A stretch of 64,000 nucleotides of DNA from Arcobacter porcinus (GTDB taxonomy: Bacteria; Campylobacterota; Campylobacteria; Campylobacterales; Arcobacteraceae). Within the stretch, counting starts at the first letter, position 1, and each line of letters begins with the position of its first letter. Below are positions 34,250 to 58,300 of this stretch, piece after piece. The position numbers were made by a program, and so were the translations under genes. Where the stretch lies: positions 744,001-808,000 of the forward strand of contig NZ_CP036246.2 of the NCBI RefSeq assembly GCF_004299785.2, read 5' to 3'. The notes under the pieces were generated by a model. The model was not told the origin of the DNA. It saw only the letters and a list, made by a program, of their open reading frames with translations, and ran no database searches.

Positions 34250-36039
34250 ATTAATCTTTTTTTGTCCTATAAAGTGTTGACAGATCAGAGTTTACAAATA
34301 TTATTGATCATCGAACCAATGCACATAAGCGAAGATTGGAAAGCTTAAAAGGGAAATCACAAATTGCTATAGAGATGATTAAAAGAGCAGTAGCTAGTGG
34401 TATATATGCAGATTATCTGCTTGTGGATAGTTGGTATTCTAAACCTGTGTTTATAGAAACAATGAATGAGCTAGGATTGCAAGTTATTTCAAGAATGGTA
34501 AACAATGATAGAATCTGGAACTTCACAGGGGAGAAAAAAACTCTTGATGGTATCTATAACAAGTTTAAAAAGCTTAAAACTATTAAGATGGGTCAATATG
34601 GCAAAAAGATAAAGTTTGAATACTTCGGGGTCATAGTTGAACATAAAAAAGCAGGAAAATTAAAAATTGTTTTTATAAAAACCAAAGAGAATCTCATCCC
34701 TATTGTATCTACAAACTTAGACTTGAGTGATGAAGAAATTATCGATATTTACAAACGACGATGGGATATAGAACAAGGGTATAAAGAACTTCGTGAACAC
34801 TTTGGGTTTGGTAAAGAAGAAAATCGAATTTATGAAGCACTTATTGCTCGCATAACACTCTCATTTTTTACATACAATGTTGTTAGCTATATAAATCGTA
34901 TCAGTAATGAACCAAAAACTATTGGTGGATTGTTTAAAGATCTAGAATGTGAACTTCACACTTTGGCAATTGCTATGCAAGCATTTTTAGCTATTTTAGA
35001 TGAGATTGCAAAAATTGAAGAAGTTGTCAATAGAAATGAGGATTTTACAGCAATAATCGATCTATTAAGAGATGTGACTGGAAAACTACTTGGTTTTAGG
35101 TGCGAAAGTTAAGTTATAAATTCAATCGCATTTTGAAATCTTTGATTTATTTTGTCTTTTTTATTAGGAATAAAAACCCCTTGATAGTTTAATTCGATAG
35201 AACAGTATTCTTTAATACTCTTTCTATCTGGTAAGGTTCCTTTTCCCCATTGCTTAACCGTGTTTTTTGATTCAATTGATCTAGATTCATTTTTGTTTTT
35301 TTCATCTAACTCAATACATAGTTTATCTAAGCTCTTTCCATATAAATCTATCCACCAATTCATTAAATATTCCATTGGTAATTTAAGTTTATTATATTCT
35401 GTGACATCAGGTAGGTACCAAAATTTACCACCTGATAAATTTTTATCAATTCTAGACTCATAATCAATATCTAAAGTAGCAAAGCGTATAGCTAAATATG
35501 GAATCACTAATCTTTTTAATATTATCCAGTTTAATTTTTTATCACTATGTGATGATGAATAAGGAAATAGCTTTGCGTATAAATTATTATATAAAAATAG
35601 TAAATCTGTAAAAATATTAACTAACTCACTGTTTTTATCATCAATACTTAATTTTTCAAATATTAAATTGATATGTTCTGCGTATTTATCAAAACTTTCT
35701 TCATTTGTAAAAAATCTATTTTTTTCAGAGGACTGCTTTAATTTTATTTCTTTCATATCAAAATCAAGCAATTGCATTATTTTAATCAATATTTCTTCTA
35801 TATTTAACATTTATTCTCTTTTTTTAATTCAAAATATATAGAAAAGATTATATCAAATGACTCCATAACTAACTTATTATTAAAAAATTACAGTTTATTT
35901 AGTTTTCATATATTAAACTCATATTTGTAACAATTTATCTTTTATTTCTTTCTTAATGTAATCAAATCATATAGAACTAAAGATAATATGAGCCAATTAT
36001 AGTTGTCTTTAAAGCTTAGTAATATAAACTTACTAAACT

Positions 36040-39020: not shown

Positions 39021-40037
39021 ATGGACTTAACACAAACCTATGATTTAGAGATAGGAAAACAAACAAAAAAACCAAATTATGAATACCTTTTAAAAAGGAT
39101 AAATAAAATGAGAGGAAGTGTATATTACCAAAGTGCAGAATTAACAAAAGTAATATTTTTTGAAGGTGCAAAAAAACATAATAGAGTTGATCCTAATCAT
39201 ATTCACTATAACTGTGTAAGTTCTTTTAATACTATGAAAACATATAGAAATATATGGAATAACTTCTTTAACTATCTATTAGAACACTTTAAACTAAAAA
39301 ACTGTGAACTAATAAATGAAGATCATATAAAAGCATATATTGAATATAAAGTGGAGTATTATCCCTCAAAGCAATACCTGGAAAAAATAACATCTGCTTT
39401 AGGTAAACTAGAGTTTGCACTTAATCGTTACTCAAAACTAAAATATGAAACTAATCCAATAACTTATGATTTTAATATTAGACAATATCTACTATCTAAT
39501 GCAAAAGATTTAAATCTTGTTGCAAATAATTATAATAATAGAGTCTATTTAAACCCACAACTAATAATTGATAATTTACAAAACCCTAATCATCAAATAG
39601 CTGCTTTAATTCAACTTGAAGGTGGAGCTAGAGCTGAAGGTGTAACACTAATTAAAGAAGAACAACTAAAAGGTATTAAAGTTGATAATATTACAAATAA
39701 TAGTGTTGGTGTAATTGAGACTAAAGAGAAAGGTGGAAAAGTAGGGGATGTACTAATATCTACTAAAACTTATCAAATATTAGAAAACTATTTCATAAAT
39801 AATCAAACAAATATATTTAAAATCAAATACCAAGATTATGTAAATGATATAAAATCTACTTGTATAAAACTAAATCAAACACATCAAGGAACTCATGGAT
39901 TTAGATGGACATTTGCTCAAAATAGAGTAAGAGAGTATCAAAAATATGGTTATAGCTATGAACAAGCACTACAAGGTGTTAGTTGGGAGATGAAACACTT
40001 TAGGGCTAGTATAACTGAGCATTATTTGGGTGGGTGA
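39021..40037 (+). CDS. Tyrosine recombinase (phage/island integrase)
   Basis: The 338-aa protein has an N-terminal SAM-like DNA-binding region (about residues 65-150) and a C-terminal catalytic domain. Catalytic candidates are Arg in GGARAEGVTLIKEEQL (about residue 205), Lys in ETKEKGGKVGDV, the H-x-x-R box THGFRWTFAQNR (about residue 294), and His plus the nucleophile Tyr in MKHFRASITEHYLGG at the end. Such enzymes integrate and excise islands or prophages. It may have mobilised part of the accessory region, although no matching att pair is visible to me. A hairpin follows the stop. Confidence 0.88.
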   Translation: MDLTQTYDLEIGKQTKKPNYEYLLKRINKMRGSVYYQSAELTKVIFFEGAKKHNRVDPNHIHYNCVSSFNTMKTYRNIWNNFFNYLLEHFKLKNCELINEDHIKAYIEYKVEYYPSKQYLEKITSALGKLEFALNRYSKLKYETNPITYDFNIRQYLLSNAKDLNLVANNYNNRVYLNPQLIIDNLQNPNHQIAALIQLEGGARAEGVTLIKEEQLKGIKVDNITNNSVGVIETKEKGGKVGDVLISTKTYQILENYFINNQTNIFKIKYQDYVNDIKSTCIKLNQTHQGTHGFRWTFAQNRVREYQKYGYSYEQALQGVSWEMKHFRASITEHYLGG

Positions 40038-40505: not shown

Positions 40506-42596
40506 CTATAAGAAAATACTTTTAAAACCATACGAAGTTACTAATAAACTTTTTTTAGCTCTTGTAGCAGCAACAAAAATTAATGATTTCTCTTTTTGTA
40601 AGTTTTCACTATTAATTAAATCTTCATCAGATTTTTTAATACTTTCAAGTGGAACAATGCCTTGATTCATACTTGCAATTATTACATGATCAAAATCTAG
40701 CCCTTTTACTCTATGCATAGTTGCTATTCTTAAATTATTATTTGTTAAATCATCTTTAAAATTTCTAGAAATCTTTATTGTATTAATATCTATTTTTGAA
40801 AAATAATCGCTATAAAAATCTACTAATTTTTGAGTTCTTACTACTAAACATATTTTTGAATCGTTATCACTATTTTTTATACTATTTATATAATTTTGAA
40901 TATATTTTATTTCATCTTCAAAAGTTTCAAAGTTTTTTACTTCAGGTTTTGGTCCATTATATAGAGATTTATAATCACGATTTGAGTCTATACTATCATC
41001 TAAATCATCAATATTTTCATCATTCAACAAAGAAACTGCCCATTTTCTTATTTCATCAGTAGTTCTATAATTTAGCTTTAGTTTTTTACTTCTTCCTCTA
41101 ACATTAATTCCACATTGTGATAAAACTACTTTATGCCCATAAATTCTTTGATGTGCATCTCCTACTATAAATAAATCATTTTTATTTTCATCAACAAGTT
41201 CTCTTAAAAGTTTAAATGCTCTCATTCCAAAATCTTGAGCCTCATCAACTACTATTGCACTATATTTTTGGAAACTTGAAGAGCTATTAATTGTATTAAT
41301 CACATCATTTATTGCATCATCTAACTCTTTGTAGTTTTTAATACTTAACAAATATCTATACTCTTCAAAAATTTCCCAAACAAGTTTTCTTTGGCTTCTA
41401 TTTAATCTTGTACCTCTTCCAACTCTTGAAGCTTTTATATACTCTTCAAGAGTATTTATACCAAAAGGTTGAATTATCCTACTCCACTCCTCTTTAAAAA
41501 AAGAGTCTGCTAAATCTAGTGAACTATTTTTTAATACCAAAGCTTTTTCCCATAACTCATCTGTTTTTTCACTATAAACAATTTCATTTTTATATCCTTG
41601 TTTTGATAAAAAATTATGAACCCAAGAATCAAAATTTATAACTTCAATATTTTTCATAGTTTGCTCATCACAAATTTTCTTAAGATTTTCAAATATATCT
41701 AAGCTTAAATTTTTTGTAAATGTTGTAAATAAAATCTTTTTGTTTTCAAAAAAAGATAACTGTTTTGCTAAATATTTTGCTCTATGCATTGCTACAACAG
41801 TTTTTCCAGTTCCTGCTCCACCTAAAACCTTAACTGAACCATTAAAATTACTTTCCACAAGTTTTCTTTGGCTTGGATGTAAAAATACTCTCCATTTTTC
41901 TAATGGTGCATTAAGCATTTGCATTAAATCTTCATCATTTTCTACAATATAAAATCTTCTTTTTGAATTTTCGTTCTCTAGGGCAGCTGTAAAATCTGTA
42001 TTATCAACCAAAGCTGGTTTTTTACCATATACATACTCATAAACTTCTTCTATATTATCTCCAGCTAAAAGATAAAAAAGAGATTCATAAACTTCTTCTG
42101 GTAGATATTGTCTAAAATTATCTAATTGTGTTTCATTATCTATTAATTTAATATATTCTAATAAATTTTCATCTACACCCAAACTTTTAAGTTCTTTATC
42201 GCTAAATTTAGAGAAAAACTGCTTCTCGTTGTTTGTTTTTTCAGACAATTCAACAGAACTCTCAACACTTACTTGAGTTTCTATAATTTGTAAACTTCCC
42301 GTTTCTGAGTTAATACTACAAGTGTGTTTTTCTGCCCATTTATAAGCTTCATCGTGATTATCCACCCAAAGCAAAATATATACATCTCCACTAGTTGGAC
42401 TTAGTACTATACATCTATAAGCTTGATCTACTCTTATTGAGTACATATTATTTGAAAAATGTAGTTTTTCATAGTTTAAACCAGATGATTTTGGATCATT
42501 TTTAAACTTTTCTACTAGCTTAATTGTCTTATTTAACTGAGCTTTAGGCAATTTTGATAAAGCTGTGAAAAAATCTGAAGATATTGCAATTTTCAT
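40506..42596 (-). CDS. UvrD-type superfamily 1 helicase with N-terminal RelE-like domain
   Basis: The 696-aa protein is encoded by the last gene of the defence operon. Residues 1 to about 95 resemble a RelE/ParE toxin fold (LSKLPKAQLNKTIKLVEKF, then YSIRVDQAYRCIVL and DVYILLWVDNHDEAYKWA). The rest is an SF1 helicase: Walker A GGAGTGKT (about residue 250), VVDEAQDF (about 440), GDAHQRIYG, LNYRTTDEIR, TMHRVKGLDFDHVI and VAATRAKK. It starts by a one-base overlap (TAATG) with the stop of the 2050-aa gene. The helicase assignment is firm; whether the RelE part is an active nuclease is unknown. Confidence 0.88.
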   Translation of the reverse strand: MKIAISSDFFTALSKLPKAQLNKTIKLVEKFKNDPKSSGLNYEKLHFSNNMYSIRVDQAYRCIVLSPTSGDVYILLWVDNHDEAYKWAEKHTCSINSETGSLQIIETQVSVESSVELSEKTNNEKQFFSKFSDKELKSLGVDENLLEYIKLIDNETQLDNFRQYLPEEVYESLFYLLAGDNIEEVYEYVYGKKPALVDNTDFTAALENENSKRRFYIVENDEDLMQMLNAPLEKWRVFLHPSQRKLVESNFNGSVKVLGGAGTGKTVVAMHRAKYLAKQLSFFENKKILFTTFTKNLSLDIFENLKKICDEQTMKNIEVINFDSWVHNFLSKQGYKNEIVYSEKTDELWEKALVLKNSSLDLADSFFKEEWSRIIQPFGINTLEEYIKASRVGRGTRLNRSQRKLVWEIFEEYRYLLSIKNYKELDDAINDVINTINSSSSFQKYSAIVVDEAQDFGMRAFKLLRELVDENKNDLFIVGDAHQRIYGHKVVLSQCGINVRGRSKKLKLNYRTTDEIRKWAVSLLNDENIDDLDDSIDSNRDYKSLYNGPKPEVKNFETFEDEIKYIQNYINSIKNSDNDSKICLVVRTQKLVDFYSDYFSKIDINTIKISRNFKDDLTNNNLRIATMHRVKGLDFDHVIIASMNQGIVPLESIKKSDEDLINSENLQKEKSLIFVAATRAKKSLLVTSYGFKSIFL

Positions 42597-45500
42597 TATA
42601 CTACCCTTTTTAATAATTCATTTTTTAACTCTTCTAAGTTATTTAGTGTAAATATTTTTATTCCATCTAGTTTTAAATTGTTATCTTCTAAAATCAATGC
42701 CATATTATATTCACTCCATAAAAGTTCTGCTTCTGCAACTATTACACCCTGTTTATTTACCAAATCTTCTCCAACTGTTGGAAGTGGTATTTTACTATCT
42801 TTACTTAATTTTTTAACAAAATCTTTTACACTATTATCAATTACATCATTATATATAATTTCCCACTCTTTACTAAAATGTTCTTTAACACCTAAGTTCA
42901 TATCTATTTCATCATATAATTCATTTTCAAGTGCTTTTTTAGATATAAGAAGTGAGTTTTGATTAAATTGAAGTAGATTATATAATCTTAAAATACCTGC
43001 CCATAATGCAAAAGTGAAATCATCATTATCATTTATAAATATAATAAATACGATATTACTTAATTGATTTTTCATTAAGTCATCAGCTTTAGCAATAGAA
43101 ATCAATTTGCTACTATCTGTTTCTATTTTATGTCCAAAATAGTTTATTTCATCTGAAAAGTCATCTCTTAGGCTATTTGGTATTAAATCTATAAAGCTTT
43201 TTAATTCAATTTGAGCTTTTAAAAAGCCTGTTACAATTCCTGTTGCTAGATTATTAAACTCTCCATAATCACTACTTTTTAAAAGTTCTAATAGTAATTC
43301 AAAATTTGTTTTATCTTTATAATTTTTAAAATTAGGAAAAGATTTATTTACAACAATTAAATTTAAATCTTTATGTAATAAGAAATTCTCAAAACTATAA
43401 TTTGGTTTAGATTTATTAAACTCATTTACATCTTCCCAAGTTAGTGTCCAAACTATAAATTTACCACTTTTTGCTATTGCTAATCTTTGTGAACTATCAA
43501 TATCTACTCTTTTTTCATGATATGCAAAACCATCTGTAAATACTACAATAGGTTTTAAATTGCTATTTTTCGGGTAGAAAACAAAGTCTGCTTTTGAATA
43601 AACTGCAACATTGTCATCTTGAGTCAAACTAACTTGTTGAAGTAAATCGTATCTATATTTGTTATCAAACTCCACAATATAACCACTTCTACCTCTTAGC
43701 ATATCTTTTTTAAATGTTGTTGCAAGATTTTTAATTTTACTTAAAAATATCTCTTCAAGCATACTTTCACTAAGAGTGTCTTGGTTTATATCACTAACAC
43801 TATCAATTTTTTCTAATTTATTTTTATCTTTTAATATCATATCAATAATATTTTGAGCTTTATTTTTAGATATTAGTGGTCTATCAAAGTTATTTTTATA
43901 TGCAAACAGACACTTATAACATCCATCTTCACAATCACATTTTTTGATATTGCTATTTGCAAGTTCTAATACTTCAAATAGTGGATTTTTATCAATAATT
44001 AGTTGCTTTAAGTAACCAGTCCCACCTGGAACAGTATCATATAAAACTAAATATCTTTTAGAACTTTCATTTACATTATCTATTTCATCATAAATACCAA
44101 CTCTTAAATGTTCAACTGAACCTTTAAAATATAATTTTAATCCCATGTGAATTGAAGCTATTAAAGAGTGCATTTTTTCATCGTCAATCTCAAAACTTGT
44201 AATAGGTAAAAGTAATCTTATTGCTTCAGAATCAAACTCTCGATATAAATATAGTGATTCAAAATAGTTTTTAGCTTCTGTTTTATCATCAATTTTGCAA
44301 ATAAATGTATGATTATCTCCTTTAAATCCACTATCAGTAGGTTTTCCAAATTGTACTTTTCCACACTCTTTACAAATCACAAAACCAGCTCTTGGAACAG
44401 ATTTATTAGCAATTGATATATCATTTCCAACTAAAGTAGTTTCTCCAAAATTAATCTCTTTAAAGTTTACTTTACTAATAAACTCAAAGCCAAATAAACT
44501 ATCATCACTTTTTATAGCATAAGCATCTTCAATATTTTTTTTATCAAAATCAATAAGTAGCTGTTTTGTATAAAATTTTATATCTCTTGAATCGCTATCA
44601 TCTTTAATCCTGCTACTTTTGTCATTACTTGTTGCCATTACAGAGCTTAGTCGTAAAATAGATTTTTTTTGTCCTTCATCTGAAAATTGTTCACTTCCAC
44701 ATTTTGGACAAGCTGTTGGTTCATTTAATGTTATCTTTTCTGTGTGAGAACATTTATCACAAAATCTCCAAGTTTCTACTTCTGAAATAGTATTTGGGTC
44801 TATTTGGTCAATATTTACTTTTCTTCCACCTGCATAAAAACTATTACTTGGTGCAAACTCGCTAATAGCACTACTTCCAGCTCTTTCATACTCAAATGTA
44901 AAAATATCATATTTTTGTCCATTATTTGAAGCTATACTCTCTTTTCTTCTATAAATTACTGATTTTAATACTATTCCACTCTCTGGAAAAGCATAGTTTG
45001 GAAGTAACCCTTCATCTGCAAAAAATTCAAATGTCTGTTTTCTTTTAATATTTAGTGCTATTTTTCTTAAACCCTCATATTCACTTTTCATATTAGAGAG
45101 TTTTTCATCATAATCTTTATCTTTAGCCTCTGTTTTTTCAAACTTTTTAATACTTTTATTTAAAGAACTTATTTGATTTGATAGATTAATTTGTTCTTGA
45201 TTAATCTGTTCTAGCTTTTCAAAAATATTCATTACCAAACCACTTTGTTCATCATTACTTTTTGCAAATTCTATTAGTTTTTCTTTTGAAGTTTGAAGAA
45301 GTTTATTTCCAAAAAGAGCAAAAAAATCTTTTAGCAATATATCTGCATTATCATCAATAAATCTAAAAAGTGTATATGGAAATTTATCGGTATTAGCTTT
45401 TTTAATATTTGTTAATACTATATGCAATTTATATGGTAAATCACTTTGTTCAATTTTTTCATTACTAACCCATTTATCTATACAAAAAGCCAAAAACTGT

Positions 45501-48500
45501 CTTTGCAATATTGCAGAAGCATCAATAAAAACACCAGGAGCATCGATAGTTCCTTGCATCATTTCGTTTGGAGTATTGTAAAAATATAAATCATGGCTAG
45601 AAGCTGTTGCAATAGTTGCATTAAATGAGTTACCATCTGTTCTTCCAGCTCTTCCTATTCTTTGTAAATAATTTGCTCCATTTGGTGGAACAGAACATAA
45701 AACAACTGAACTTAAATCTCCAATATCAATACCCATCTCCAAAGTTGGTGTTGCACTTAAAAGATTTGTTTTCCAAGTCTCATTTTTCTTTCTTTTAATA
45801 AAATCTATCTCAACTTTTTCTCTATCGTTTCTAGCTAATAAACCTGTATGTTCTCGTGGTATAATTCTTTCAACATCTCCAAATTTATATAACTGTTTAT
45901 AGTAACTATCACTTGATATATTTTTTTTATAATTACCTCTACAATTCTTTCTCAAACATTGCATTTCTTCTGCTTTGCTTTCTTGTCTTTTTGCAATTGT
46001 AAGTTTATGTTTACAACTACTACACTCAAACTCACTTGCCCTATTTGTGATAAACAAATTTTCAGGATTTAGAACCCATACACTAGAGCCTTTTACATCT
46101 ATCTCAAGTAAAATTTTTGCATTTACAAGATACGATAATACAACTCTAAATATCTCATTTGTATCTGCCACTAATATACTATTTTCAACAAAATTTGATG
46201 CTACCCAATTATCACACCAACTATTTTTTGAGCTATTTGAAACTTTATCAAACTCTTTAAAAGAACCATTTGTTAGTAATACTGGATTTCGAGAATTGGG
46301 ACTAAACTTAGCCATATAAAACATTCTAGGTTTTAGCTTGTTTATTTGATATACTTCTCCTGCACTATTTATATATGGTTCTATATGAAAACTTTTAATT
46401 GCTCCACTATTTTTTAGATATATTAAAAACCCTAAAATAAATTTCTCCAAATTAGTTTTATCAAGAGTTCTTAAAATCTCAATATCATTTTGTAGTTTTG
46501 TTAAGAGTGGGTTTATAATTTTCTCATAATTATCTATATACATAACAGAAGCTCCACTTCTTTCTAGTGTTCTTCCTATATGTGATTTATAACCATATTC
46601 ACTGTGAATCATCCAATCAATTCTTTTGTCAATTAACTCTATCAATTCATTAGAGTTTTTAAGTTCATCAGTTTTAACTAAATTATCATACTCTCTTAAC
46701 CACTCCATATCTGGTGCGATTAGAGTTGAAACATATACTTTGTCATCTTTAAACTTATTTTTCCAATAGTTACTTACTATTTTTGGAAAATCATTTAAAG
46801 ATACAAAATCTTGATTGTGTTCATCTAATGCTTGTTGAATTGCACTTCTTATTGTAAATTGATAGCTTCTAGCTCCAAAAAAACCAGCTCTTTGTGCAGA
46901 ATCTTGAACACTATCAGAAAATGCTATTAATTTTTTATCATCATTATAAAAACTTGCGAAGTTTTGTCCTATCATAACACTTGTTAAACTAGCTGCTCTT
47001 GAACCTAAAATAGTTAAAGAATTTTTTGCATTACAAAAAGGGCAGTGATGATGACTTTTTCCATTTGTAGCAATATTATCAGACTCTAAAACTTTAATAC
47101 TTCCTATATTTTCATTATCTGTTTCAAATCCACTACTATTTATATAATATATATTTCCTTTAATATTTTTATTGTTTTGCTCAATTGGAAAGATAAATTT
47201 CACTCTTGGGTCATTACTAAAAAAAGCTTGATAAAACAGATCTAAATCATTTATAAGCTCTCCTGTACCACCACTCTTTTTAACACCACCCCAACCCATA
47301 GTATGACAATCTCTACAATGAAGTATTGGATAGTGTTTTATATCCTCTTTTGATTTTAAATCGTGGTCATAATTTAATTTTGGTTTTTCTTCTAAAGTAG
47401 CAACCATTCTTGCTAACTCTCTTAGCCATATTTGAACTTTTACAAACAAAAATGGTGGATAAGAAGAGCCTAATTTTTCATTTTTTGCCCACGATGTGAG
47501 AGCTAAAAGTGAATTTATCATAAAAATAAAAAACTTATCACTTGATTTTATAGGCATACTTCTAATAAATGCATCTATTAACTCTTGTCTTGATTTTATC
47601 TTTGCTTCTAAAGTTTTTATAAGTAGTTTAAAAACATAAAGGTTTTTTAACTCTTTTCCTAGTTCTACTTTAAAAATAGCGTCATTTACATCAATCTTTG
47701 TATCATCTTTGTTAAACCATAGTCTATATTGTGCTTCAATATATTCACTAATATTTTTATAGTTTGAATAATCTAAAACTTCTATATCATTTTGCGTAGG
47801 ATAAAAAATAATATCATCTTTATTGTTTTTAAAAAACTCATCTGTATCTATTCTATACTCTCTTACAATTGAATCATCATCAAACTCTTCATCAAATATA
47901 TCACTCGCAAAATTTCGTATAGGTTTTGTTGAATCTGCTCCTAAAGTTGCCGAAGTTCCTATACAAGCGATTGAAGATTTTTTTACTTTTAGTTTTGCTC
48001 TTACTCTTCTTAATAGTGAAGCTAAATCTGTTCCTTGAGCTCCATCAAATGTATGTATCTCATCAACTGCTATAAATTTTAAAATATCTGTACCAATATT
48101 GTGTTGCCAAATTTTTTGATCTCGTGGTCGCATAAGCATAAAATCTAGCATTTTATAGTTTGTCAAAAGTATATCGGGTGGATTGTCGCAAAGTATATGC
48201 TTGTCTGTTATTACATAATCTTCACTCATTGTTTTTTGTGCATTATCATCGCTACTACCTATATATAATCCTACTCTTATGCCATTTAAATTTTGAGTTT
48301 TTGATATAGTTTTAGCAAATCTTTTAGCCTGATCAGTTGCTAGTGCATTCATAGGATAGATAATAATAGCTTTTATACCTTTTTTATCTTTTGTTTTATA
48401 GCAGTGATTTAAAATAGGAAACATAAATGATTCAGTCTTACCAGAACCTGTCCCAGTTGCGACTAATGTAGATTTTGGATTTTCATCTCCTAATCTTAAA

Positions 48501-48748
48501 AATGCTAACTCTTGATGATAATATGGTTTAAAACTATCATCTAATATATCTGGAAATAAGTTATCTTCCTTTTCTCCATTTTTAAAAGGTAATGCAACAG
48601 AGATATAAGGACCTTTAAAAAGTTTGCCATCTTCTTCTACAAAATTATTCATCATATCAAAAAATAGTGGGCTAGAGCTTGGAAAAGTTGTTGTTAAAAA
48701 ATCTTTTACCCCTGTTATTACTTGACTAGCTAGTATTGATGGTATCAT
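42596..48748 (-). CDS. Giant DUF1998 helicase with C-terminal nuclease-like region (DruE- or DrmA/DrmB-like)
   Basis: The 2050-aa SF2 helicase has Walker A ATGTGSGKT (about residues 97-105), DEIH (about 225), GTSATLG (about 266), SATPTLEMGIDIG (about 1000) and QRIGRAGRTDG (about 1033). Several zinc-finger-like Cys clusters follow (HCRDC, CPFC, CSSC, CDKC with CPKC, CKEC). The DUF1998 signature CEDGCYKCLFAY is near residue 1610. Near residue 1725, ADFVFYP and VVFTDGFAYHE resemble a Vsr/DUF559-type nuclease core. DUF1998 helicases are hallmarks of Druantia (DruE, similar size) and of DISARM, where DrmA and DrmB are separate. It overlaps both neighbours by 1-4 nt. Confidence 0.82.
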   Translation of the reverse strand: MIPSILASQVITGVKDFLTTTFPSSSPLFFDMMNNFVEEDGKLFKGPYISVALPFKNGEKEDNLFPDILDDSFKPYYHQELAFLRLGDENPKSTLVATGTGSGKTESFMFPILNHCYKTKDKKGIKAIIIYPMNALATDQAKRFAKTISKTQNLNGIRVGLYIGSSDDNAQKTMSEDYVITDKHILCDNPPDILLTNYKMLDFMLMRPRDQKIWQHNIGTDILKFIAVDEIHTFDGAQGTDLASLLRRVRAKLKVKKSSIACIGTSATLGADSTKPIRNFASDIFDEEFDDDSIVREYRIDTDEFFKNNKDDIIFYPTQNDIEVLDYSNYKNISEYIEAQYRLWFNKDDTKIDVNDAIFKVELGKELKNLYVFKLLIKTLEAKIKSRQELIDAFIRSMPIKSSDKFFIFMINSLLALTSWAKNEKLGSSYPPFLFVKVQIWLRELARMVATLEEKPKLNYDHDLKSKEDIKHYPILHCRDCHTMGWGGVKKSGGTGELINDLDLFYQAFFSNDPRVKFIFPIEQNNKNIKGNIYYINSSGFETDNENIGSIKVLESDNIATNGKSHHHCPFCNAKNSLTILGSRAASLTSVMIGQNFASFYNDDKKLIAFSDSVQDSAQRAGFFGARSYQFTIRSAIQQALDEHNQDFVSLNDFPKIVSNYWKNKFKDDKVYVSTLIAPDMEWLREYDNLVKTDELKNSNELIELIDKRIDWMIHSEYGYKSHIGRTLERSGASVMYIDNYEKIINPLLTKLQNDIEILRTLDKTNLEKFILGFLIYLKNSGAIKSFHIEPYINSAGEVYQINKLKPRMFYMAKFSPNSRNPVLLTNGSFKEFDKVSNSSKNSWCDNWVASNFVENSILVADTNEIFRVVLSYLVNAKILLEIDVKGSSVWVLNPENLFITNRASEFECSSCKHKLTIAKRQESKAEEMQCLRKNCRGNYKKNISSDSYYKQLYKFGDVERIIPREHTGLLARNDREKVEIDFIKRKKNETWKTNLLSATPTLEMGIDIGDLSSVVLCSVPPNGANYLQRIGRAGRTDGNSFNATIATASSHDLYFYNTPNEMMQGTIDAPGVFIDASAILQRQFLAFCIDKWVSNEKIEQSDLPYKLHIVLTNIKKANTDKFPYTLFRFIDDNADILLKDFFALFGNKLLQTSKEKLIEFAKSNDEQSGLVMNIFEKLEQINQEQINLSNQISSLNKSIKKFEKTEAKDKDYDEKLSNMKSEYEGLRKIALNIKRKQTFEFFADEGLLPNYAFPESGIVLKSVIYRRKESIASNNGQKYDIFTFEYERAGSSAISEFAPSNSFYAGGRKVNIDQIDPNTISEVETWRFCDKCSHTEKITLNEPTACPKCGSEQFSDEGQKKSILRLSSVMATSNDKSSRIKDDSDSRDIKFYTKQLLIDFDKKNIEDAYAIKSDDSLFGFEFISKVNFKEINFGETTLVGNDISIANKSVPRAGFVICKECGKVQFGKPTDSGFKGDNHTFICKIDDKTEAKNYFESLYLYREFDSEAIRLLLPITSFEIDDEKMHSLIASIHMGLKLYFKGSVEHLRVGIYDEIDNVNESSKRYLVLYDTVPGGTGYLKQLIIDKNPLFEVLELANSNIKKCDCEDGCYKCLFAYKNNFDRPLISKNKAQNIIDMILKDKNKLEKIDSVSDINQDTLSESMLEEIFLSKIKNLATTFKKDMLRGRSGYIVEFDNKYRYDLLQQVSLTQDDNVAVYSKADFVFYPKNSNLKPIVVFTDGFAYHEKRVDIDSSQRLAIAKSGKFIVWTLTWEDVNEFNKSKPNYSFENFLLHKDLNLIVVNKSFPNFKNYKDKTNFELLLELLKSSDYGEFNNLATGIVTGFLKAQIELKSFIDLIPNSLRDDFSDEINYFGHKIETDSSKLISIAKADDLMKNQLSNIVFIIFINDNDDFTFALWAGILRLYNLLQFNQNSLLISKKALENELYDEIDMNLGVKEHFSKEWEIIYNDVIDNSVKDFVKKLSKDSKIPLPTVGEDLVNKQGVIVAEAELLWSEYNMALILEDNNLKLDGIKIFTLNNLEELKNELLKRVV

Positions 48749-50463
48749 TTATTTTCCTCATAGTAAGTGTTTTTTCCACTACTTATTTTAATAATTTTTC
48801 CATCTTTAGACATATTTCTTAATATTTCACGAGCTCTACTCTCTTTTACATTTAAAAGTGTTTCAATATCTTCTCTTCTTATCAAACCTTTTTCTTGAAT
48901 ATAATTTAAAACCAACTTTTCTGCTTCCGACGGTATTCCGACGGTTTCCGACGGTGTTGTACCGTCGGTATTTATAAAACTCTTATTTATATAATATTTC
49001 GTGCCTCTTCCAACTCCTTCAGAAATCAGCAATTTCTTATCTACAAGTTTTTTTAATATTTTTGATGTATCTGCTGAATGAATTGCACCAATATCAGATA
49101 ATCTAATATTTGAAACTTCATCATCAACTGTTGCTAAAATTAGTGCCAATCTTGAATCTTTATCAAGGTTTATATACTCTTTACCAAATCTATTTTCAAG
49201 TTCTTCTTGAATTTCCTTTGGAAAAAGTGAAATTGTAGGCATAAAAAGTGTTGTTGTTTCAAGGCTAGTATTCTCTTCAAGATATGGAAATTGCCAATGC
49301 TGTTCTTTCCAAGCTCTTAGCATTTTTGTAAAACCTGAACCTGCTTGTTCTCCCATACCAATATATTGGAACATTTTTTGTAAAGTTCTATTTCTACAAT
49401 CACTATGTCCACCTTTGAAAGCTTCCTCTTTTGATACTCTTAAAAGCCCTGAATTTCTAAAGCTAAAGCCTTTTGGATGTTTAACGATTAAAATACCAAT
49501 TCTTCCACTATAATTTGCATGTATCAAACTATTTATAAGAGCTTCTCTTATAGCTTCGTGAATATTTGACTCATCAACTCTTTGAAAAGAATCTTTTAGT
49601 TTAAAAGGTACTTTGAGTTCTGAACTTAGTTTTCTATAAACTTTTTGGCTAAATTCAAAAAGATTTCCACTCCAAGTACCATCTGTTGTAACTCTATCAA
49701 TCCATCTATCTTCAGCATTTTCAGTTTGTTCTTGATAATCAACCAAATAGTTTGGTACTCCATCAAGTATTGACCTAAATTTACCAAACATCAAAAGCCC
49801 AGCAAGAGTTAATCCCTCTTGATTTGTTTTTCTATCTTTTTTATAAGCCCCAATTTGAGTTAAAAACTCTTTATCATCAAGCTCTATCCAAGGATGATTT
49901 AATTTTGTGGATTTGTAAATATTTCTATATGAATTTAGACTATTACTATCTACATCTTCCATAGTAAAACCTTCTACGATAAAAGTATCATTTGACTCAT
50001 TTAGAGCATCGGCTAAAAGGTGTTTTACTATATCTTCATTTGCTTTTATATCTGAATCATGGTATCTAAGATATGTTCCAGTTAGTGGATTTTGTCCAAT
50101 ATAGATTGGTTTTAAAGTTCTAGCAACTCGTGGAATATGAAGCAAAATTAGTTTTTTATTTTCACACTCGATAAGTTCTAAATCAGATTCTTTTAATATA
50201 TTTTTATTTACTTTTTGGGGATTATTTATTGTTGTCCAAAAGTCTTTTTGGGCTTTATCTATATCTTTTATTCCCAAAAACTCCAAACTACCGTCTTTTA
50301 ACTCTTTTGCACCAAGAAGAATTTTTCCACCATCACTATTTGCCATAGAGCTATAACTCTCCCAAAGTTCTTTTGGTATCTCTCCATTTCCACTTTGTCC
50401 TTGAGCTGATTTTGCTTCAAATTGATAGTTTTCTCTAAGTTCTGATAGTTCTTCACAAGTCAT
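48745..50463 (-). CDS. AlbA_2/Schlafen-type ATP-binding protein with C-terminal winged helix
   Basis: The 572-aa protein has an N-terminal AlbA_2 (divergent Schlafen) domain: YQFEAKSA, then MANSDGGKILLGAKEL (about residues 36-51). A GHKL-like ATP-binding region follows (about 300-410, with NIHEAIREALINSLIHANY, FRNSGLLRV, GEQAGSGFTKML). Two helix-turn-helix segments occupy the C-terminus (SNIRLSDIGAIHSADTSKIL and RREDIETLLNVKESRAREIL). This AlbA_2-HATPase_c_4 form is common beside phage-defence loci. Before the last domain lies a GC-rich repeat (CCGACGGT). It overlaps both neighbours by ATGA. Confidence 0.85.
   Translation of the reverse strand: MTCEELSELRENYQFEAKSAQGQSGNGEIPKELWESYSSMANSDGGKILLGAKELKDGSLEFLGIKDIDKAQKDFWTTINNPQKVNKNILKESDLELIECENKKLILLHIPRVARTLKPIYIGQNPLTGTYLRYHDSDIKANEDIVKHLLADALNESNDTFIVEGFTMEDVDSNSLNSYRNIYKSTKLNHPWIELDDKEFLTQIGAYKKDRKTNQEGLTLAGLLMFGKFRSILDGVPNYLVDYQEQTENAEDRWIDRVTTDGTWSGNLFEFSQKVYRKLSSELKVPFKLKDSFQRVDESNIHEAIREALINSLIHANYSGRIGILIVKHPKGFSFRNSGLLRVSKEEAFKGGHSDCRNRTLQKMFQYIGMGEQAGSGFTKMLRAWKEQHWQFPYLEENTSLETTTLFMPTISLFPKEIQEELENRFGKEYINLDKDSRLALILATVDDEVSNIRLSDIGAIHSADTSKILKKLVDKKLLISEGVGRGTKYYINKSFINTDGTTPSETVGIPSEAEKLVLNYIQEKGLIRREDIETLLNVKESRAREILRNMSKDGKIIKISSGKNTYYEENK
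48930..48977 (-). repeat. GC-rich CCGACGGT micro-repeat inside the AlbA_2 protein gene
   Basis: CCGACGGT occurs three times at 10-12-nt spacing, and once more reversed (ACCGTCGGT), within about 48 bp. On the coding strand the frame gives the linker TTPSETVGIPSEAEK. The GC content is far above the surrounding sequence. Copy-number changes not in multiples of three would break the last domain. Confidence 0.7.
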
Positions 50464-52094
50464 AAATTATCCTCTATATTTGGTAAATATTCAAAAAATA
50501 CATTTTTAATTTCATCTTTTTCAATATTTTTGATAACAGTTGAAATGTAACGCTCTTTATGCATTCCAAATATTCCTGATACTTTCACAACTAATCCTTT
50601 GTTATCAATCAGACAAATAATTTTTGAAATATCATTTTCATTTTTTAGTGCATCTAAAGATGATATTGTTTCTGAAATAAGATTATCAACATCAATAGTA
50701 TTTATATAATCATCATATTTACTCTTAAAATCTTCATCATGTTTTGGTTTTGGGAATTTACTCAACAAATCAGAGGTTTTTTTATAAATTATATTTTGAA
50801 TTAATTTATCTAAATTTCCTTCAAATGTAGTAGATATAATATTTTGAATTTCACTTAAAATATCTTCTTTACTCTTGTCAAAATGAAGACCACCTATACT
50901 TAAAATACTATAAATCTCTGCAGCTATTTTTGGTAAACAAAATAAATTTTCAACCTCTAAAACATCTATAGTATATACACCTTTGTTGTTAAGTAATTCT
51001 ATTTCGTTTTCTGTTCTAAAATCTTTATCAATAATTCCTATAGGTTGAATATTATGAAGTGTCCACTCCTTTTTATAAGAGCTAACCATTTCTATTACAG
51101 CACTACAAGATTTTAGTGGTATGATTGTATATTTATCATAAAGTTTTGAATACAACTTATAATCCAAACTTCCTTTTTCACCTTCTATAAATAACACTGG
51201 TTTTCTTGAGCCCATAATTTCAAAATGTATCTGGTTAAACTCTTCATTGTTATCAAAATCTATCTCATCAAAATCCCAAGTTTCTTTACCATCAAAGCTT
51301 TTAATCCAAACTCTTTTACTACCAAATCTCTCTTTTGCAAAATCCAAATCATGTGTAATATAAAATATAGATATATCATCTCTTAATTTTTCCAATTCGT
51401 CCCATAAGGGATTTAAAATTGACTTATGTATATGTATTTCTGGTTCATCAACTATTAAAATAAAATTAGGTTCAACACTTAAAACTTGCCCGATTAGATA
51501 GATTATTACTCTTTCTCCATCGCTAAGCTCTGTTCCTATATAACTTTCTGATTCTTTTTTTACTAATATTTTTTGGTCAAAAAACTCTATTTGTCTATGT
51601 GGTAATAATTTATTCCATAAATCAATAAGTTTTTCAATATTTGATGATGGTTTAAAATCATTTGTAATTGTTGCACCAGTATTTTCAGAAACTTTTTTTG
51701 CTAATATTTCATTTCGTAAATTTTGTTCAGAATACAACATTGATAATAAATGGTTATAGTCATTTAATAATCCAGTTGTAAACTTTCCACTTTGCCACCT
51801 TTGATTTGATTTTGCTTGAGAAGTATATCTATCCAAATAATCTGGCTGTTGTCCTTGAAAATCACTACCATAATATAAAAATTTTTGAGATTTTTCAAAA
51901 GATTTTAAAGATATTTCTTGATTAAAAGACAAATTTCTTTGTGCAGAGATTCTATGTACTTCTTTAGGATTTTTATTTTCTATCCAAGCACCCAATCTAC
52001 TTTTCCCAGAGCCATTTGCCCCTATAAAAACTATTGTTTTTTCATATTCAATATTAACTAATTCACCATTTTTTAATAAATCTATTTTGTTCAT
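50460..52094 (-). CDS. AAA/ABC-type ATPase fused to a DUF4435 (TOPRIM-like) domain
   Basis: The 544-aa protein has an SMC-like ATPase N-terminus: Walker A GANGSGKSRLG (about residues 25-35), signature-like LSDGERVIIYL (about 190), Walker B FILIVDEPEIHIH (about 213) and YITHDLDFA. The C-terminal half, FIEGEKGSLDYKLYSKLY (about 303) then GIIDKDFRTENE and VLEVENLF, fits DUF4435, a TOPRIM-related domain. This is the ATPase plus DUF4435 pairing of PARIS (AriA and AriB), here in one chain, and resembles OLD nucleases. In DISARM such a protein is not a core part. It starts 19 nt after the preceding gene. Confidence 0.78.
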   Translation of the reverse strand: MNKIDLLKNGELVNIEYEKTIVFIGANGSGKSRLGAWIENKNPKEVHRISAQRNLSFNQEISLKSFEKSQKFLYYGSDFQGQQPDYLDRYTSQAKSNQRWQSGKFTTGLLNDYNHLLSMLYSEQNLRNEILAKKVSENTGATITNDFKPSSNIEKLIDLWNKLLPHRQIEFFDQKILVKKESESYIGTELSDGERVIIYLIGQVLSVEPNFILIVDEPEIHIHKSILNPLWDELEKLRDDISIFYITHDLDFAKERFGSKRVWIKSFDGKETWDFDEIDFDNNEEFNQIHFEIMGSRKPVLFIEGEKGSLDYKLYSKLYDKYTIIPLKSCSAVIEMVSSYKKEWTLHNIQPIGIIDKDFRTENEIELLNNKGVYTIDVLEVENLFCLPKIAAEIYSILSIGGLHFDKSKEDILSEIQNIISTTFEGNLDKLIQNIIYKKTSDLLSKFPKPKHDEDFKSKYDDYINTIDVDNLISETISSLDALKNENDISKIICLIDNKGLVVKVSGIFGMHKERYISTVIKNIEKDEIKNVFFEYLPNIEDNL

Positions 52095-52113
52095 CTATTT
52101 ACCTTTAAAATAA

Positions 52114-55100
52114 TTACTCATTAACAATTACTCCTAAATCAACTCCACCAACCTCTTTTAGATAACTTTCTGTAACCCCAATTAAAGTTTGGATAGTATC
52201 ATTAGTATTTTGTTTTGACAAACCAGGTTGAACAATAAATATCTCAAATTTCATAGGTTTTATATTTTTAGCAATTTTTAACAATCTCTCCAAATCTTCT
52301 TTTGAACCTTTTTCAATTCTACTTCTTTCATTACCATTTTTACTTTTGATTTCTCTTCTTAATAATCTTTCAAAAAATTCTACACCACTTTTATGTTTCC
52401 AAATAATTGATTTTTGTGCTTGTCCACAAACTTCATAAAAATCAGATACACGTTGTCCAACACTATCTCCATGTGCAAACTTTAGGTGATAAAATTGAAT
52501 TAATATTACATCATCTTTTTCTTTTATAGTAACTATGTCTGCTATTTCTCCTGAACCGTCATCATCATAAATAATATCAAAATCAAAAGTTTTCAATCTT
52601 TTAATAGTCACATATTGAATAGAATCAATTATTAACGGATTGACACCCTGAGACTCTTTTCCTATATCAACACCATTCCAATTCCAATCAATGAGTTTTT
52701 CAGCTGGATATGCTTGAATTAATTGTTTAAGTTCTACATACTTTATCCCTTGAAGAGAAGAACCATCAGCAAACCAAATCATTGGAGGATTATCTTTAAA
52801 ATATTCTACTAAAGAACATTTTTTATTGCCAATTTGTATATCAATATTTTCAGATGAAATTTTACTAAAATTAAATTTACCATATGTTTCTCCAGTCGTT
52901 GCATCAACTTTTTTAGCTATTGTTTGTTCAAAGCTTATTTCTTTATCAGGAGTTGTTAAAGAGAAAACTATTTTTCCTTTTTGCAGAGTATCAATTGATA
53001 AACTTAAATCTATCACATTTATTTTAGAGCCATCAATCTCTACATTTTTCTTATTATCTGAATATTCATAGTAACTTTCATCCCAATCTATCGATACCGC
53101 ATGTTTATTTGGAATACAATCCATATATTTGGGTATGAGAGTATCTTTTAGTATTTGATTAGGGTCTATGTTGGGATCTATCATTTTTGAACCTATCACA
53201 TCACACCATTTTACATAATCGTTTAAAGAACCTCTTGCATAGCTCCAAATTCTTCCTTTATAAGAGCAACCTAAAGATATTTTATTACCATCATCATAAC
53301 CTGATCCAAATACAAATGCTTTTTGAGATTTTGTTTGTGCAGTTTTAGATATTGCTTCTTCAATATCAGAACCTGTAAGCATCCTAAATCTTATATGTTT
53401 ATTCATCCACTCTTTTAAGCCCACATTTTGTAATGAAACTCTTAAGATATTATGAAAAATCTTAAAAACATTAAGTTCATTTAATATAATAGCCTCGTTA
53501 TTTAATATATAATTTGCAACCTCTTTATATAAGCTTGATTTATCTGAAGAATGTATATACAATAATTTATTACTATCATCATAATATAAAACCATTAAAT
53601 TCCATTGAAATTCATATATATCATGGTAATTTACCCAATCCATATTTTTCTTATCAGCATAAATAAATACTAAAGTATTTTTTGATTCATTTATATATTC
53701 AAACTTATACTGGAATTTATCATATCCTTTAAGTCCACTTTTATATTTTTTCAAATTAAATGAACTTGAATTGTTTTTATATACAACTGTACTCATTGCC
53801 ATGTTTATATTTTGAAAGGGTATTGTTGCTTCATCAATATTTGAAAAACCTTTTAGAAATTCATCTAACTCAATTTTTTCTTCAGTCTTTCCAGTACTTA
53901 ATTCTGATAATAACAAATTCCAATCAGAATCCATAGCATATAAAGAATCTAATTCTTCCTTTACTTTCACATCTGCTAAATTTGCAATAAATGTGGCATT
54001 ACCAAGCTTTTTATCAAAAGAAGTTCTAGTAAAACGACCTGCAAATTGTAAAGTAACTGGTAGGCTTTTTCTTATGTCATGAAATGCTGCAATTTTTAAC
54101 TGAGGTAAATCAAAACCTTCCCCTAGCATATCTACAGCTACTATTATTTTATGTTTAGAATTAACTATTGAATCCATAGTTTCTTTTTTATTTGGGATTG
54201 AAGAATGAATCAATACTGGGTTTAAGTCAGTATATTTTTCATATAACTTAAAAACTTCTTCAGCTCGTTTCTTATTTTCACATCTTGCCATTAGAATATG
54301 TTCATATCCTTGTGAAAAATCATCTCTTAATTGTTGTACAGCTTTTTCTGCAATTAAAATATCTCCCTTTTCAAGTTCATACTCTCTTATTGGAGAAAAA
54401 CTAATAGATTTAAAATAGCCTTGTTCTTGAGCTTTTTTTAATGGAAAATTAAAAATTATATCACCTTCTAATCTCTTTCCATCATTTCTAAATGGAGTTG
54501 CAGTAAACTGAAGAATAGTTTTTTCTTTAAAAAAATCTCTTATTCTTGACCAAGAACTAGCTTGGCTATGATGAGCCTCATCTATAAATAAATATTCATA
54601 CTCTTTAGCTATTGTTTCTAATTTATCTTTATCATAACTTGACAATAGGTTCATTGTCGTTACTGTTATATTGCAGTTTTTAATAAATTCTTCTAATTCA
54701 GCTAAAGAAGAAAAATTTTCATTTAAAATTCCAACTTTTGGATTTAGAGCTGAACTATTTATAATACCAAATTCTTTTAAAAGCCCCAGTGTATAAAATT
54801 TATTAAATATTTGAGTCCTCAATGCATCCGATGGTACAGTAATTAAAATTTTCTTACATTTATTTGCAATGAGAACTGAAAGCATTGTTTCTGTTTTTCC
54901 TGTACCTGTTGGCATTACAACTATTCCCATTTTTTTAGAAACTTTAAAATGACTCAATATAGAATATAGTGCAGCAATTTGTGGTTCTCTCAAACCTTTA
55001 ATATCTTGTTCTAAGTCCTCTTCTACAAAATTAAATTGTTTATCCCACGACTTAATAACACCTTCTGTAGTATGATTTGCTAATAAAGGATGCTTTATCC

Positions 55101-55368
55101 ATTTTATAAATCTAATATCTCCATTTGAAATATTTTCAGCAGTAGCTTTTTTATCTACTTTTAAAATATATTGATATTCTTTAGGAGCATTTACTTCATT
55201 ACGTAATAAACAATATTTATCTTCGCCTGATAAAACTATTGTATAACCATTATGAACCGTAACATTATCTACATTTATTTTCATAGTAGGAGCTAAAAGT
55301 TGCTGAACAATATTTTTGCACCCAGTTTTTTTATAACAATCTATTTCCAACTTAAGTAATTCAATCAT
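52114..55368 (-). CDS. SF2 helicase of SSL2/type III restriction type with long C-terminal extension
   Basis: The 1084-aa protein has Walker A PTGTGKT (about residues 153-159), DEAHHSQASSW (about 262), QFTATPFRNDGKR and a helicase C domain (DMLGEGFDLPQLKIAAF, QFAGRFTRT near 440). It resembles the helicase subunit of type III restriction enzymes and SSL2-like defence helicases. About 600 C-terminal residues are of unknown fold. They include a DIIYDDDGSGEIADIVTIKE region with charged residues (about 940-960) that might be a nuclease, but I cannot confirm a catalytic set. It overlaps the methylase gene by 8 nt. Confidence 0.82.
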   Translation of the reverse strand: MIELLKLEIDCYKKTGCKNIVQQLLAPTMKINVDNVTVHNGYTIVLSGEDKYCLLRNEVNAPKEYQYILKVDKKATAENISNGDIRFIKWIKHPLLANHTTEGVIKSWDKQFNFVEEDLEQDIKGLREPQIAALYSILSHFKVSKKMGIVVMPTGTGKTETMLSVLIANKCKKILITVPSDALRTQIFNKFYTLGLLKEFGIINSSALNPKVGILNENFSSLAELEEFIKNCNITVTTMNLLSSYDKDKLETIAKEYEYLFIDEAHHSQASSWSRIRDFFKEKTILQFTATPFRNDGKRLEGDIIFNFPLKKAQEQGYFKSISFSPIREYELEKGDILIAEKAVQQLRDDFSQGYEHILMARCENKKRAEEVFKLYEKYTDLNPVLIHSSIPNKKETMDSIVNSKHKIIVAVDMLGEGFDLPQLKIAAFHDIRKSLPVTLQFAGRFTRTSFDKKLGNATFIANLADVKVKEELDSLYAMDSDWNLLLSELSTGKTEEKIELDEFLKGFSNIDEATIPFQNINMAMSTVVYKNNSSSFNLKKYKSGLKGYDKFQYKFEYINESKNTLVFIYADKKNMDWVNYHDIYEFQWNLMVLYYDDSNKLLYIHSSDKSSLYKEVANYILNNEAIILNELNVFKIFHNILRVSLQNVGLKEWMNKHIRFRMLTGSDIEEAISKTAQTKSQKAFVFGSGYDDGNKISLGCSYKGRIWSYARGSLNDYVKWCDVIGSKMIDPNIDPNQILKDTLIPKYMDCIPNKHAVSIDWDESYYEYSDNKKNVEIDGSKINVIDLSLSIDTLQKGKIVFSLTTPDKEISFEQTIAKKVDATTGETYGKFNFSKISSENIDIQIGNKKCSLVEYFKDNPPMIWFADGSSLQGIKYVELKQLIQAYPAEKLIDWNWNGVDIGKESQGVNPLIIDSIQYVTIKRLKTFDFDIIYDDDGSGEIADIVTIKEKDDVILIQFYHLKFAHGDSVGQRVSDFYEVCGQAQKSIIWKHKSGVEFFERLLRREIKSKNGNERSRIEKGSKEDLERLLKIAKNIKPMKFEIFIVQPGLSKQNTNDTIQTLIGVTESYLKEVGGVDLGVIVNE

Positions 55369-58300
55369 TTAATACTCCTTGTTTTTCAAAACACTCCCAA
55401 GCTATCTCATAATCTTTCTCTCTATCACATTTTACAAAAGGGGCTTTATACACAATAGTTCTCTCAACAACTCCTGCTGGTGTAGTATCATCTAAAATTG
55501 TTCTATGAATTTCTCCCTCACTCATATCCATAATATCTTCCCAACCAAGTGGTTTTTCATCTACAATTTTGCCGTTTATTACTATTTTACAAGCTGTGCT
55601 ATTTTTATCTGCTTTTCGTGGAAGTCCCACTCCCACCAATCCTTTACTAACTGTAAAAACTATTCGCCCGTTTGCATCATAAAATGTTTCATTTTCATTT
55701 TGTTTAAGTACAGGAAACTGTATTCGATATATAGTTTTTAACTCTTGTAAACTCAAGCCCAACTCAATAGCCACAAGCACATCTATTTCTACAAGTGCTT
55801 GTCTTCTTTCATAATCACTTCTTAGAGCTACATCTCTTTGCCAATATGGTGTTAAGTTTTTAAAGAAATCTTGATTTAATCGTGAGTCATCTTTTTTGCT
55901 CCAGCTATCATCTCTAAAATCACCGCTATATTCTTCTTCCCAAAGTTCTTTATAATCCGTAGTTAATACTGATAGAATTATACATCTAATTAACATTTCT
56001 TTATTGAGATTAATAAGTGGAAAATTCTTAAAAATATTAAATCCAAAATTTGCCATTCCTGTGGTTTTAACATAAAAATCACTAATTATTGAAAAAGAAA
56101 ATGTTGATATAGATAATAAAATTTTATTTTCATTAAATTCAAAAGAGATTATAGATGATGTGTGACTGACTTTAGATGGATATATTGCAGAAATCAAAGT
56201 TCTTTCATTTGAACTATTAATCATTTTTCTATAAGCTAACCTATATGATGAATTTATTTGAAATTTTTTATTTGTTAAATAATTAGTTCTACCAATATAT
56301 CTTATATCTAAATTATCTAAGTCTAAAATATCATAATGTGAATTTTGTGTACATATATTCCTCGGAATTTTATAAAAAGGATTACCTACATACAAAAATG
56401 AGCCTTGTATGATTTTATTATTTATATTTGATAAAAAAGATGTTTTATTTATAATATTATTTAATAAAACATCTTTATTCTCATCCCAAAAAAATGTAAA
56501 ATTAAAATTATCCTTTTTTGAAATTATTTTATTTTTATATAAACCTATTTTTTCAATAACACTTAATAAACTATTGGTTTGTAAAGAAGGTAGTCTCGCC
56601 TGATTATATTCAATATTCTCATCATACAATACTGAAAATATTTTTAAAATATTTTTATCAATCTTAATTACTCTTTTAATGTTACCATTAATATTCCATT
56701 TTCCATTGATTTTTTGTTCTTCAATATTTTCTTTATTTATATCATTAAAGCAATTATCTATAGTTATAGGATGATACAAATTAGAAATATTATAAAAAAA
56801 TATTTCAGATATTTTATTTTTATAAATATTAATACTATATTTTATCTGATCATGAATATCTTCAAATAATAGAAGTTTGTTTACAAATTGCATATGATAC
56901 TTTAGGCGTAAATAAATATTACTTCTAAGCAAATTTCCTCTTGGATCCTCATAAATACCTTCAGGATGAAGTAAACCTGAAATACCATTATTATTTAAAA
57001 TATTAAATGATTTAATTATAAAGTTTTTATATAAATTTGTCGCACTACCTTCTAAAATCTTATAATTGGAGTTAGAATTTAAAAAATTTTGATAAGAACT
57101 TATAGAAATATATTCATCAATATAACTATTTATTAATTTAAAGGATTTTTCAAATGTTTCACTTCTTAAACTATTTAATCTACTTGCACTAAATTTTCGT
57201 ATATCAAAAAGTGGATTTGCCTCTCCCATAATTCCACCTTCATTCCACTCCACTTTTAACCACGGCGGATTTCCTAGCACCATATCAAATCCACCATTTT
57301 TTGCAAAAATATCTGCAAACTCTAGCTCCCAGTGTAAAAACTTTTGGTTTTGGCTTATCTCTTTTACTATTTGAAGTCTAGGACTATTTTGTATAAACTC
57401 TTCTACATCTAGCACTCCTAATTCGCTTAATTGTGTGGCTCTTATATCATCATCTATGGTAGGGCTAAAGAGAATTTTATCTAAGTTCATCATCATAGCA
57501 CTTTGTTTTTTTACCAATATTGCAATATCACTTAAAAACTCTTCTCTAGTTGGTAAATATTCTGCTTTGTCTATTGACCAAAACCATAGGCTACACCAGT
57601 AGTTCATAACTGTTTTAAGCCTTATATATGGGCTTGAACTTTTTATATTTTGTGTTAGTTTTTCTTGTTCAAAAACTCTATTTTTATAGCTTAAATCTGT
57701 TTGTTTAAACTGCTCTGCTTTTGGCTGACCCCAAACTTTGAGTGGGTCTGTTGTTTTTTTCTTCATATCGTTTATATGTCTTGTATGCTCTTGCCAAAGA
57801 TTGTCAATAGCTAGTGATAAATCAAGAAGAGTGTCTATCTCATCTTTTGTATATGGTTTTATAAACTCTTTTCTCCAGCTATTTATAATATCTATTTTCT
57901 CTTTTTTTAGCTCTTTTACTACTTTGTCTGTGTAGTTTGACATTCCCTCATCGCCTAGTAAAAAGTGATAAACTTCTTTTTCTTTTTCTCTTCCTGCATT
58001 TTTTGTATCGCTTATTGTATGTGGAAGTTTGTGTGGGAGTCTTTGAGTGTCTTCAAAAAGCGAAGCTGTATTTTGTGCTTGAGTTGTATCTCTTTTTTCT
58101 GTTTTCCATAGAGTTTTTGGGTTTAATCTTTTTGGTGAATCTTTGTACCACAACAAATCTTTTTTACTAGCACTTAGAGTTGAAATATCATATACTTCTC
58201 TTCTTGCACCTATTAGTGAGTTTCCATTTTCTAGCTGAAATCCAAACCAAGGAATAAATGTTTTTCGCACTTTATCCTCTTCCCAAGTAAACATAGCATT

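Follow-up and report, generated by a model that had tools for sequence, protein, structure and literature searches.

A predicted single-chain PARIS protein as one of several exchangeable defence modules in a putative ARMADA type II operon of Arcobacter porcinus

In Arcobacter porcinus, a gene for a fused PARIS protein (AriAB) lies within what, judged from its sequence, is an ARMADA type II operon, where it appears to be one of several interchangeable defence modules that occupy a slot between armB and armC. The stretch of DNA analysed here comprises 64,000 nucleotides and is referred to as the window; coordinates without a locus prefix are positions within it. Taking all the evidence into account, we consider it reasonably probable that the fused PARIS protein is an exchangeable slot module of ARMADA II, which is co-transcribed with the operon and would provide an abortive second line of defence. 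It is this arrangement, that is PARIS as one plug-in of an armB-armC socket, rather than the protein as such, which is the interesting part. In the available text of the literature searched, supplements aside, we found no description of an armB-armC socket for defence cargo with PARIS as a plug-in.

Results and discussion

A single-chain protein with predicted AriA-like and AriB-like halves

The AriAB gene (50460-52094, minus strand) is an uninterrupted open reading frame that starts with ATG and encodes a protein of 544 amino acids. The product matches the PADLOC AriAB profile over residues 10-541 (414.5 bits, E 1.8e-124), and Pfam DUF4435 covers residues 297-510 with 42.7 bits (cut-off 27). 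Towards the N-terminus, ABC_tran is matched by residues 14-218 (26.6 bits, cut-off 25) and AAA_21 by residues 22-249, the latter with 25.0 bits slightly below its cut-off of 27. Motifs and structural matches divide the chain into an AriA-like ABC ATPase half (residues 1-281; 51252-52094, minus strand) and an AriB-like DUF4435/TOPRIM half (residues 282-544; 50463-51251, minus strand). The former carries a Walker A motif (GANGSGKS, residues 25-32), the signature SDGER (residues 191-195), a Walker B motif (DEPE at 216) and H248, and the latter contains the TOPRIM motifs E304, D356/D358 and EVEN at 380. Alignments of 17 fused homologues (28-39% identity) and of a set of 12 revealed that the Walker A, signature, Walker B and TOPRIM residues are nearly all invariant, including E304, D311, D356, D358, E380 and E382 in the TOPRIM half. 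Together with the predicted fold, these features identify the product as a putative single-chain PARIS protein, composed of an AriA-type ABC ATPase sensor and an AriB-type DUF4435/TOPRIM nuclease, in agreement with the initial annotation, which had described a single-chain ATPase-DUF4435 protein. Since single-chain PARIS had already been described in 2022 (Rousset et al., PMC9122126), the protein itself is not new. It resembles that form in its single-chain design, motifs, AriAB profile match and the predicted fold of its C-terminal half, with AriA ranking first in a near tie for the N-terminal half, and is an ordinary protein for its family, but differs in being embedded in ARMADA and in its shorter sensor half (see below). 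A recent foreign origin of the gene, considered on the basis of composition, was rejected, as neither the GC content (0.254) nor codon usage stands out.

AlphaFold2 modelled the whole protein with a mean pLDDT of 79 and the C-terminal half alone with a mean pLDDT of 90. Foldseek searches with the full model returned GajA first, with retron ATPases and OLD next among the top matches (TM ~0.3); AriA and AriB were absent from the top 50 for this model, but a second look with VIA did list both. VIA ranked AriB first for the whole model (8ux9_A; Z 13.4, 223 residues, rmsd 8.6 Å), the two AriB entries reaching Z-scores of 13.4 and 12.2. For the C-terminal half alone, AriB scored Z 12.0 and 11.2 (8v46 and 8ux9), followed by the TOPRIM of OLD at 8.1 and by unrelated folds at ~6. 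The AriB matches extend over 213-223 residues with rmsd values of 7-9 Å. The N-terminal half matched AriA first (8v49 and 8v45, Z 10.3 and 10.2), but these matches are tied with retron/PtuA ATPases at 9.9-9.5. A straight offset of the VIA alignment (281 to 3) places the invariant residue E304 on E26 of AriB, and the E26A variant of AriB serves as the inactive TOPRIM control (PMC12409363). According to these models, the C-terminal half is predicted to adopt the AriB fold, beyond a generic TOPRIM.

The Foldseek ranking and the TOPRIM fold common to OLD could also be taken to mean that AriAB is an OLD-like DNA nuclease, i.e. an extra subunit of ARMADA that cuts phage DNA instead of tRNA. We regard this as very improbable: AriB is ahead of OLD by ~4 Z units, the DUF4435 and AriAB profiles match by far the best, and in the available text of the ARMADA preprint the E. 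coli system shown to work consists of ArmA-D only (PMC12458937). OLD and Gabija GajA share with AriAB the combination of ABC ATPase and TOPRIM in one chain, but AriAB clearly scores lower against them in profile and fold, has DUF4435 instead of an OLD-type TOPRIM and lacks a directly paired GajB-type partner. A plain OLD nuclease was likewise rejected (GajA profile 19.8 bits versus the AriAB score given above; Z 8.1 versus 12.0 for the TOPRIM half). The comparison with fused AriAB and OLD families, which the initial annotation had proposed, accordingly came out on the side of AriAB in scores, in fold and in the DUF4435/TOPRIM identity of the C-terminus.

The surrounding operon resembles ARMADA type II

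AriAB is embedded in a row of seven close-packed minus-strand genes reaching from 63006 to 40506, with successive gaps of -4, -8, +19, -4, -4 and -1 bases. No terminator-like sites were found on the minus strand between 48500 and 64000, and a promoter scan yielded as many promoter-like sites as in shuffled sequences. Given the gene overlaps or spacing of 19 bases and the absence of an intervening terminator, AriAB is probably co-transcribed with ARMADA.

Profile matches assign the four outer genes, all on the minus strand, as follows. ArmA (60190-63006) is a BrxHII/RapA/DrmD-like SNF2 helicase that is 48% identical to its counterpart in the E. coli plasmid locus. ArmB (55361-60193) is a PglX/type IIG-like N6-adenine methyltransferase with EPAMGSA at 559 and NPPW at 975, which matches the type IIG/PglX-like PADLOC profile PDLC03614 at 923 bits and whose gene is linked to armC in plasmids; the location of the PARIS protein inside a methylase operon, as initially annotated, is thereby borne out. 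ArmC (42596-48748) is a YprA/DruE-like helicase of 2050 amino acids with a DUF1998/MZB domain, and ArmD (40506-42596) is a GajB/UvrD-like helicase with a small RelE/ParE-like N-terminus that is weakly backed by profile (ParE_like, E 0.004, below cut-off). The four proteins share 30-48% identity with those of E. coli plasmid, cyanobacterial and alphaproteobacterial loci, which mostly have the same gene order.

A 2025 preprint, in its available text, defines ARMADA type II by a BrxHII-like ArmA, a PglX-like ArmB, a YprA-like ArmC and a RelE-GajB-like ArmD and describes a strict gene order (Bell et al., PMC12458937). The window has the same enzymes in the same order, and counterparts of the residues mutated in that study (ArmB N971, ArmA K136, ArmC K110, ArmD K266 and D454) lie within a few positions. 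On the grounds of identity and gene order, we assign the operon around AriAB to ARMADA type II with the order armA-armB-armC-armD kept. Unlike the published system, it has three additional genes that separate armB from armC; the available text of the preprint, supplements aside, mentions no PARIS and no slot of this kind. DISARM class I or Druantia was considered as the host operon, since the DrmD, DrmMI and DruE profiles match, but both the gene order and the presence of a RelE-UvrD gene point to ARMADA II.

Integrase-like genes flank the ARMADA region, namely a phage integrase at L072:3135-4277 and a weaker XerA-like match at 39021-40037, which suggests that the region is a genomic island. 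In addition, IS genes encoding an rve integrase and a DDE transposase are located at 33422-35112, downstream of the operon.

The armB-armC junction carries different cargo in different species

The cargo slot (48745-55368, minus strand) contains the gene for an SF2 helicase of 1084 amino acids (52114-55368, minus strand), AriAB and the gene for a Schlafen/AlbA_2 protein of 572 amino acids with HATPase_c_4 (48745-50463, minus strand). A search for ArmC in the phylum of the window identified ARMADA II loci in five genomes from three families, some of these loci being related to one another. In a second species of the genus (G314), the slot holds PsyrT, PsyrA and the AlbA_2 protein, which is 81% identical to that of the window. 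G144 carries a PD-Lambda-4/Avs4-like protein, PsyrT, PsyrA, AbiEi and AbiEii, and G491 carries the helicase (66% identical to that of the window), AbiEi and AbiEii. The slot of G474, the representative of the third family, encodes a TIR_2 protein, an OLD/AriA-like ATPase and a SoFic protein (L068:13837-17499, minus strand). That is, AriAB occurs in one of the five loci, and the slots of the other four are filled with other modules. The armC gene of G474 carries a stop or frameshift.

According to a gap table over 14 loci, the distance between armB and armC is 6.6 kb in the window and 3.8-9.0 kb across the five loci of the phylum, some of which, as noted, are mutually related; these are the loci in which a fully loaded slot is seen. 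The gap measures 17-25 bases in E. coli, Microvirga, Martelella, Gemmobacter and Aulosira and 212 bases in Pseudanabaena, whereas a single small gene occupies this position in Nostoc and Haematobacter; in Cylindrospermopsis, the order is C-D-A-B. The other junctions are tight, the armA-armB junction comprising at most 14 bases throughout, and big cargo is found at armB-armC only. In E. coli, the armB-armC junction was continuous in all 40 rows sampled across a ranking of 518 genomes, which represent related strains and few events. Direct adjacency of armB and armC, which is the usual layout and not a stated requirement, is absent from the window, but gene order is kept.

Comparison with G314 at the DNA level points to exchange of the slot content between species. 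The alignment shows ~80% identity across the core; homology is lost 24 bases short of the armB end (55384) and returns at 50463, at the ATG of the AlbA_2 gene or one base from it. A part of armB (55949-57119, minus strand) also lacks DNA homology to this sister species and, by inferred function, is probably a switched target-recognition region. As compared to G491, the cargo helicase with its 66% identity exceeds ArmA (63%), ArmB (57%), ArmC (48%) and ArmD (56%), as expected if cargo moves separately, although the margin over ArmA is small. As slot contents differ across loci and the boundaries of exchange are clean, we regard AriAB as exchangeable cargo and not as a fixed part of ARMADA.

The slot helicase has a conserved C-terminal DDxxGExAD...HxK pattern, which probably reflects a PD-(D/E)xK-like nuclease. 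On plasmids from several phyla, it occurs as a solitary gene, and it is possibly an uncharacterised single-gene defence helicase-nuclease. A conserved ResIII-AriAB pair was rejected, as the helicase stands alone on plasmids and occurs without AriAB in G491.

Passenger, guard or second line of defence

Elsewhere, in genomes as well as on plasmids, fused AriAB is mostly a lone gene with no adjoining modification system. For this reason, its site in the window may be a convenient landing place rather than a sign of cooperation: the armB-armC junction would simply tolerate insertions within an operon that is well expressed, and AriAB would work as if alone. The slot helicase, which likewise stands alone in, for example, Bernardetia, Klebsiella and Comamonas, and the free mixing of slot modules would agree with such a passenger. 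However, all fully loaded slots hold defence modules, mostly of the abortive/toxin type, and the other junctions are without cargo, whereas insertion at random would be expected to give more varied contents and positions. We therefore consider a mere passenger possible, but not probable.

In some loci, fused AriAB does adjoin restriction genes. In G011 and G161, 1 base separates it from a preceding type IIG gene, such compact two-gene units being located at L045:4967-10268 and L046:9236-14540; in G273 it lies within a type I locus, and in G347 its neighbour is an Mrr-type gene. The AriAB proteins of G011 and G161 are 70-71% identical to a fused AriAB on a Campylobacter plasmid. These neighbourhoods are consistent with a second-line role of AriAB, but are no proof of it.

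Some loci show further features of PARIS-like genes. A fused AriAB with a long N-terminal extension is located in a type I restriction locus, where it adjoins a RhuM-Fic protein (L048:7321-16259), and a Paraburkholderia plasmid carries tandem PARIS-like systems, a split ATPase and DUF4435 pair followed by a fused one (L056:5363-9638). Fused AriAB genes at L049:9023-10647 and L050:9201-10025 are broken by a frameshift or stop, which suggests frequent loss. Among viral contigs and phage records, no relatives of ArmC were found, and the relatives of AriAB were weak and confined to one Oenococcus phage.

The initial annotation suggested that AriAB is a built-in guard which fires upon attack on the modification system. 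A dedicated guard of this kind would watch ARMADA itself or inhibitors of ArmB, such as DNA mimics, and fire upon their appearance. Indeed, the anti-restriction protein Ocr triggers E. coli PARIS (PMC9122126) and binds PglX-type methylases (PMC11341690), and the phylum offers repeated cases of fused AriAB with adjacent restriction genes. However, AriAB is missing from four of the five ARMADA II loci of the phylum and hence is no conserved part of this system; it is also lacking at the apparently continuous armB-armC junction of E. coli (sampled rows, 518 genomes), and most fused homologues are lone genes. PARIS embedded in Salmonella BREX responds neither to Ocr nor to Gp5 (PMC11341690). Moreover, the sensor half of AriAB comprises ~280 residues as compared to 464 in the studied AriA. 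Walker A and signature are ~160 residues apart, profile positions 186-251 align to AriA 365-430, and ~175 residues of the solved AriA structure preceding the signature have no counterpart, so that sensing of Ocr is not transferable to AriAB. A dedicated guard thus appears unlikely. A weaker form of the idea, layered defence, is plausible, because fused AriAB adjoins restriction genes in other lineages and ARMADA is reported to be non-abortive (PMC12458937, available text).

In the account that we favour, with fused PARIS as an exchangeable module of ARMADA II, ARMADA would act first, directly and without killing the cell, as reported for the E. coli system, whose anti-phage activity is described as non-abortive in the available text of the preprint (PMC12458937). 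By analogy with the PARIS family, the fused protein would wait as an inactive ATPase-nuclease assembly, until recognition of a phage protein by its ATPase half would switch it on. Activated AriAB would then cut host tRNA, causing translation to stop, and would thereby end infections that get past ARMADA. On this analogy, an abortive second-line role appears likely; cleavage of tRNA would follow by extrapolation from one AriB with ~14-16% structural identity. With the slot swapping modules between species, the host would keep its direct first line and change its abortive second line.

A second line of defence was also proposed for PARIS within a PglX-methylase operon in Salmonella BREX (PMC11341690) and for PARIS-like back-up modules of BREX (PMC12839542). 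In these cases, PARIS is encoded by two genes and the host system is BREX, whereas the window has a fused protein within ARMADA.

Implications

Where PARIS occurs within methylation systems, it has been interpreted as guarding the methylase. One junction that takes PARIS, PsyrTA, AbiE, Fic/TIR/OLD-like and Avs-like modules rather suggests a swappable position for abortive back-up, not a specific guard. The window and G314 represent a matched natural pair with the same core and different cargo, which makes it directly testable whether nested abortive modules need their host system, and the armB-armC slot lends itself to searches for uncharacterised defence genes. As a more speculative and unlikely extension, armB-armC could be a dedicated socket for abortive back-up modules, in which failure or inhibition of ARMADA would license the resident module. 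If the junction were such a socket, one operon would couple a direct first line of defence to an exchangeable suicide second line.
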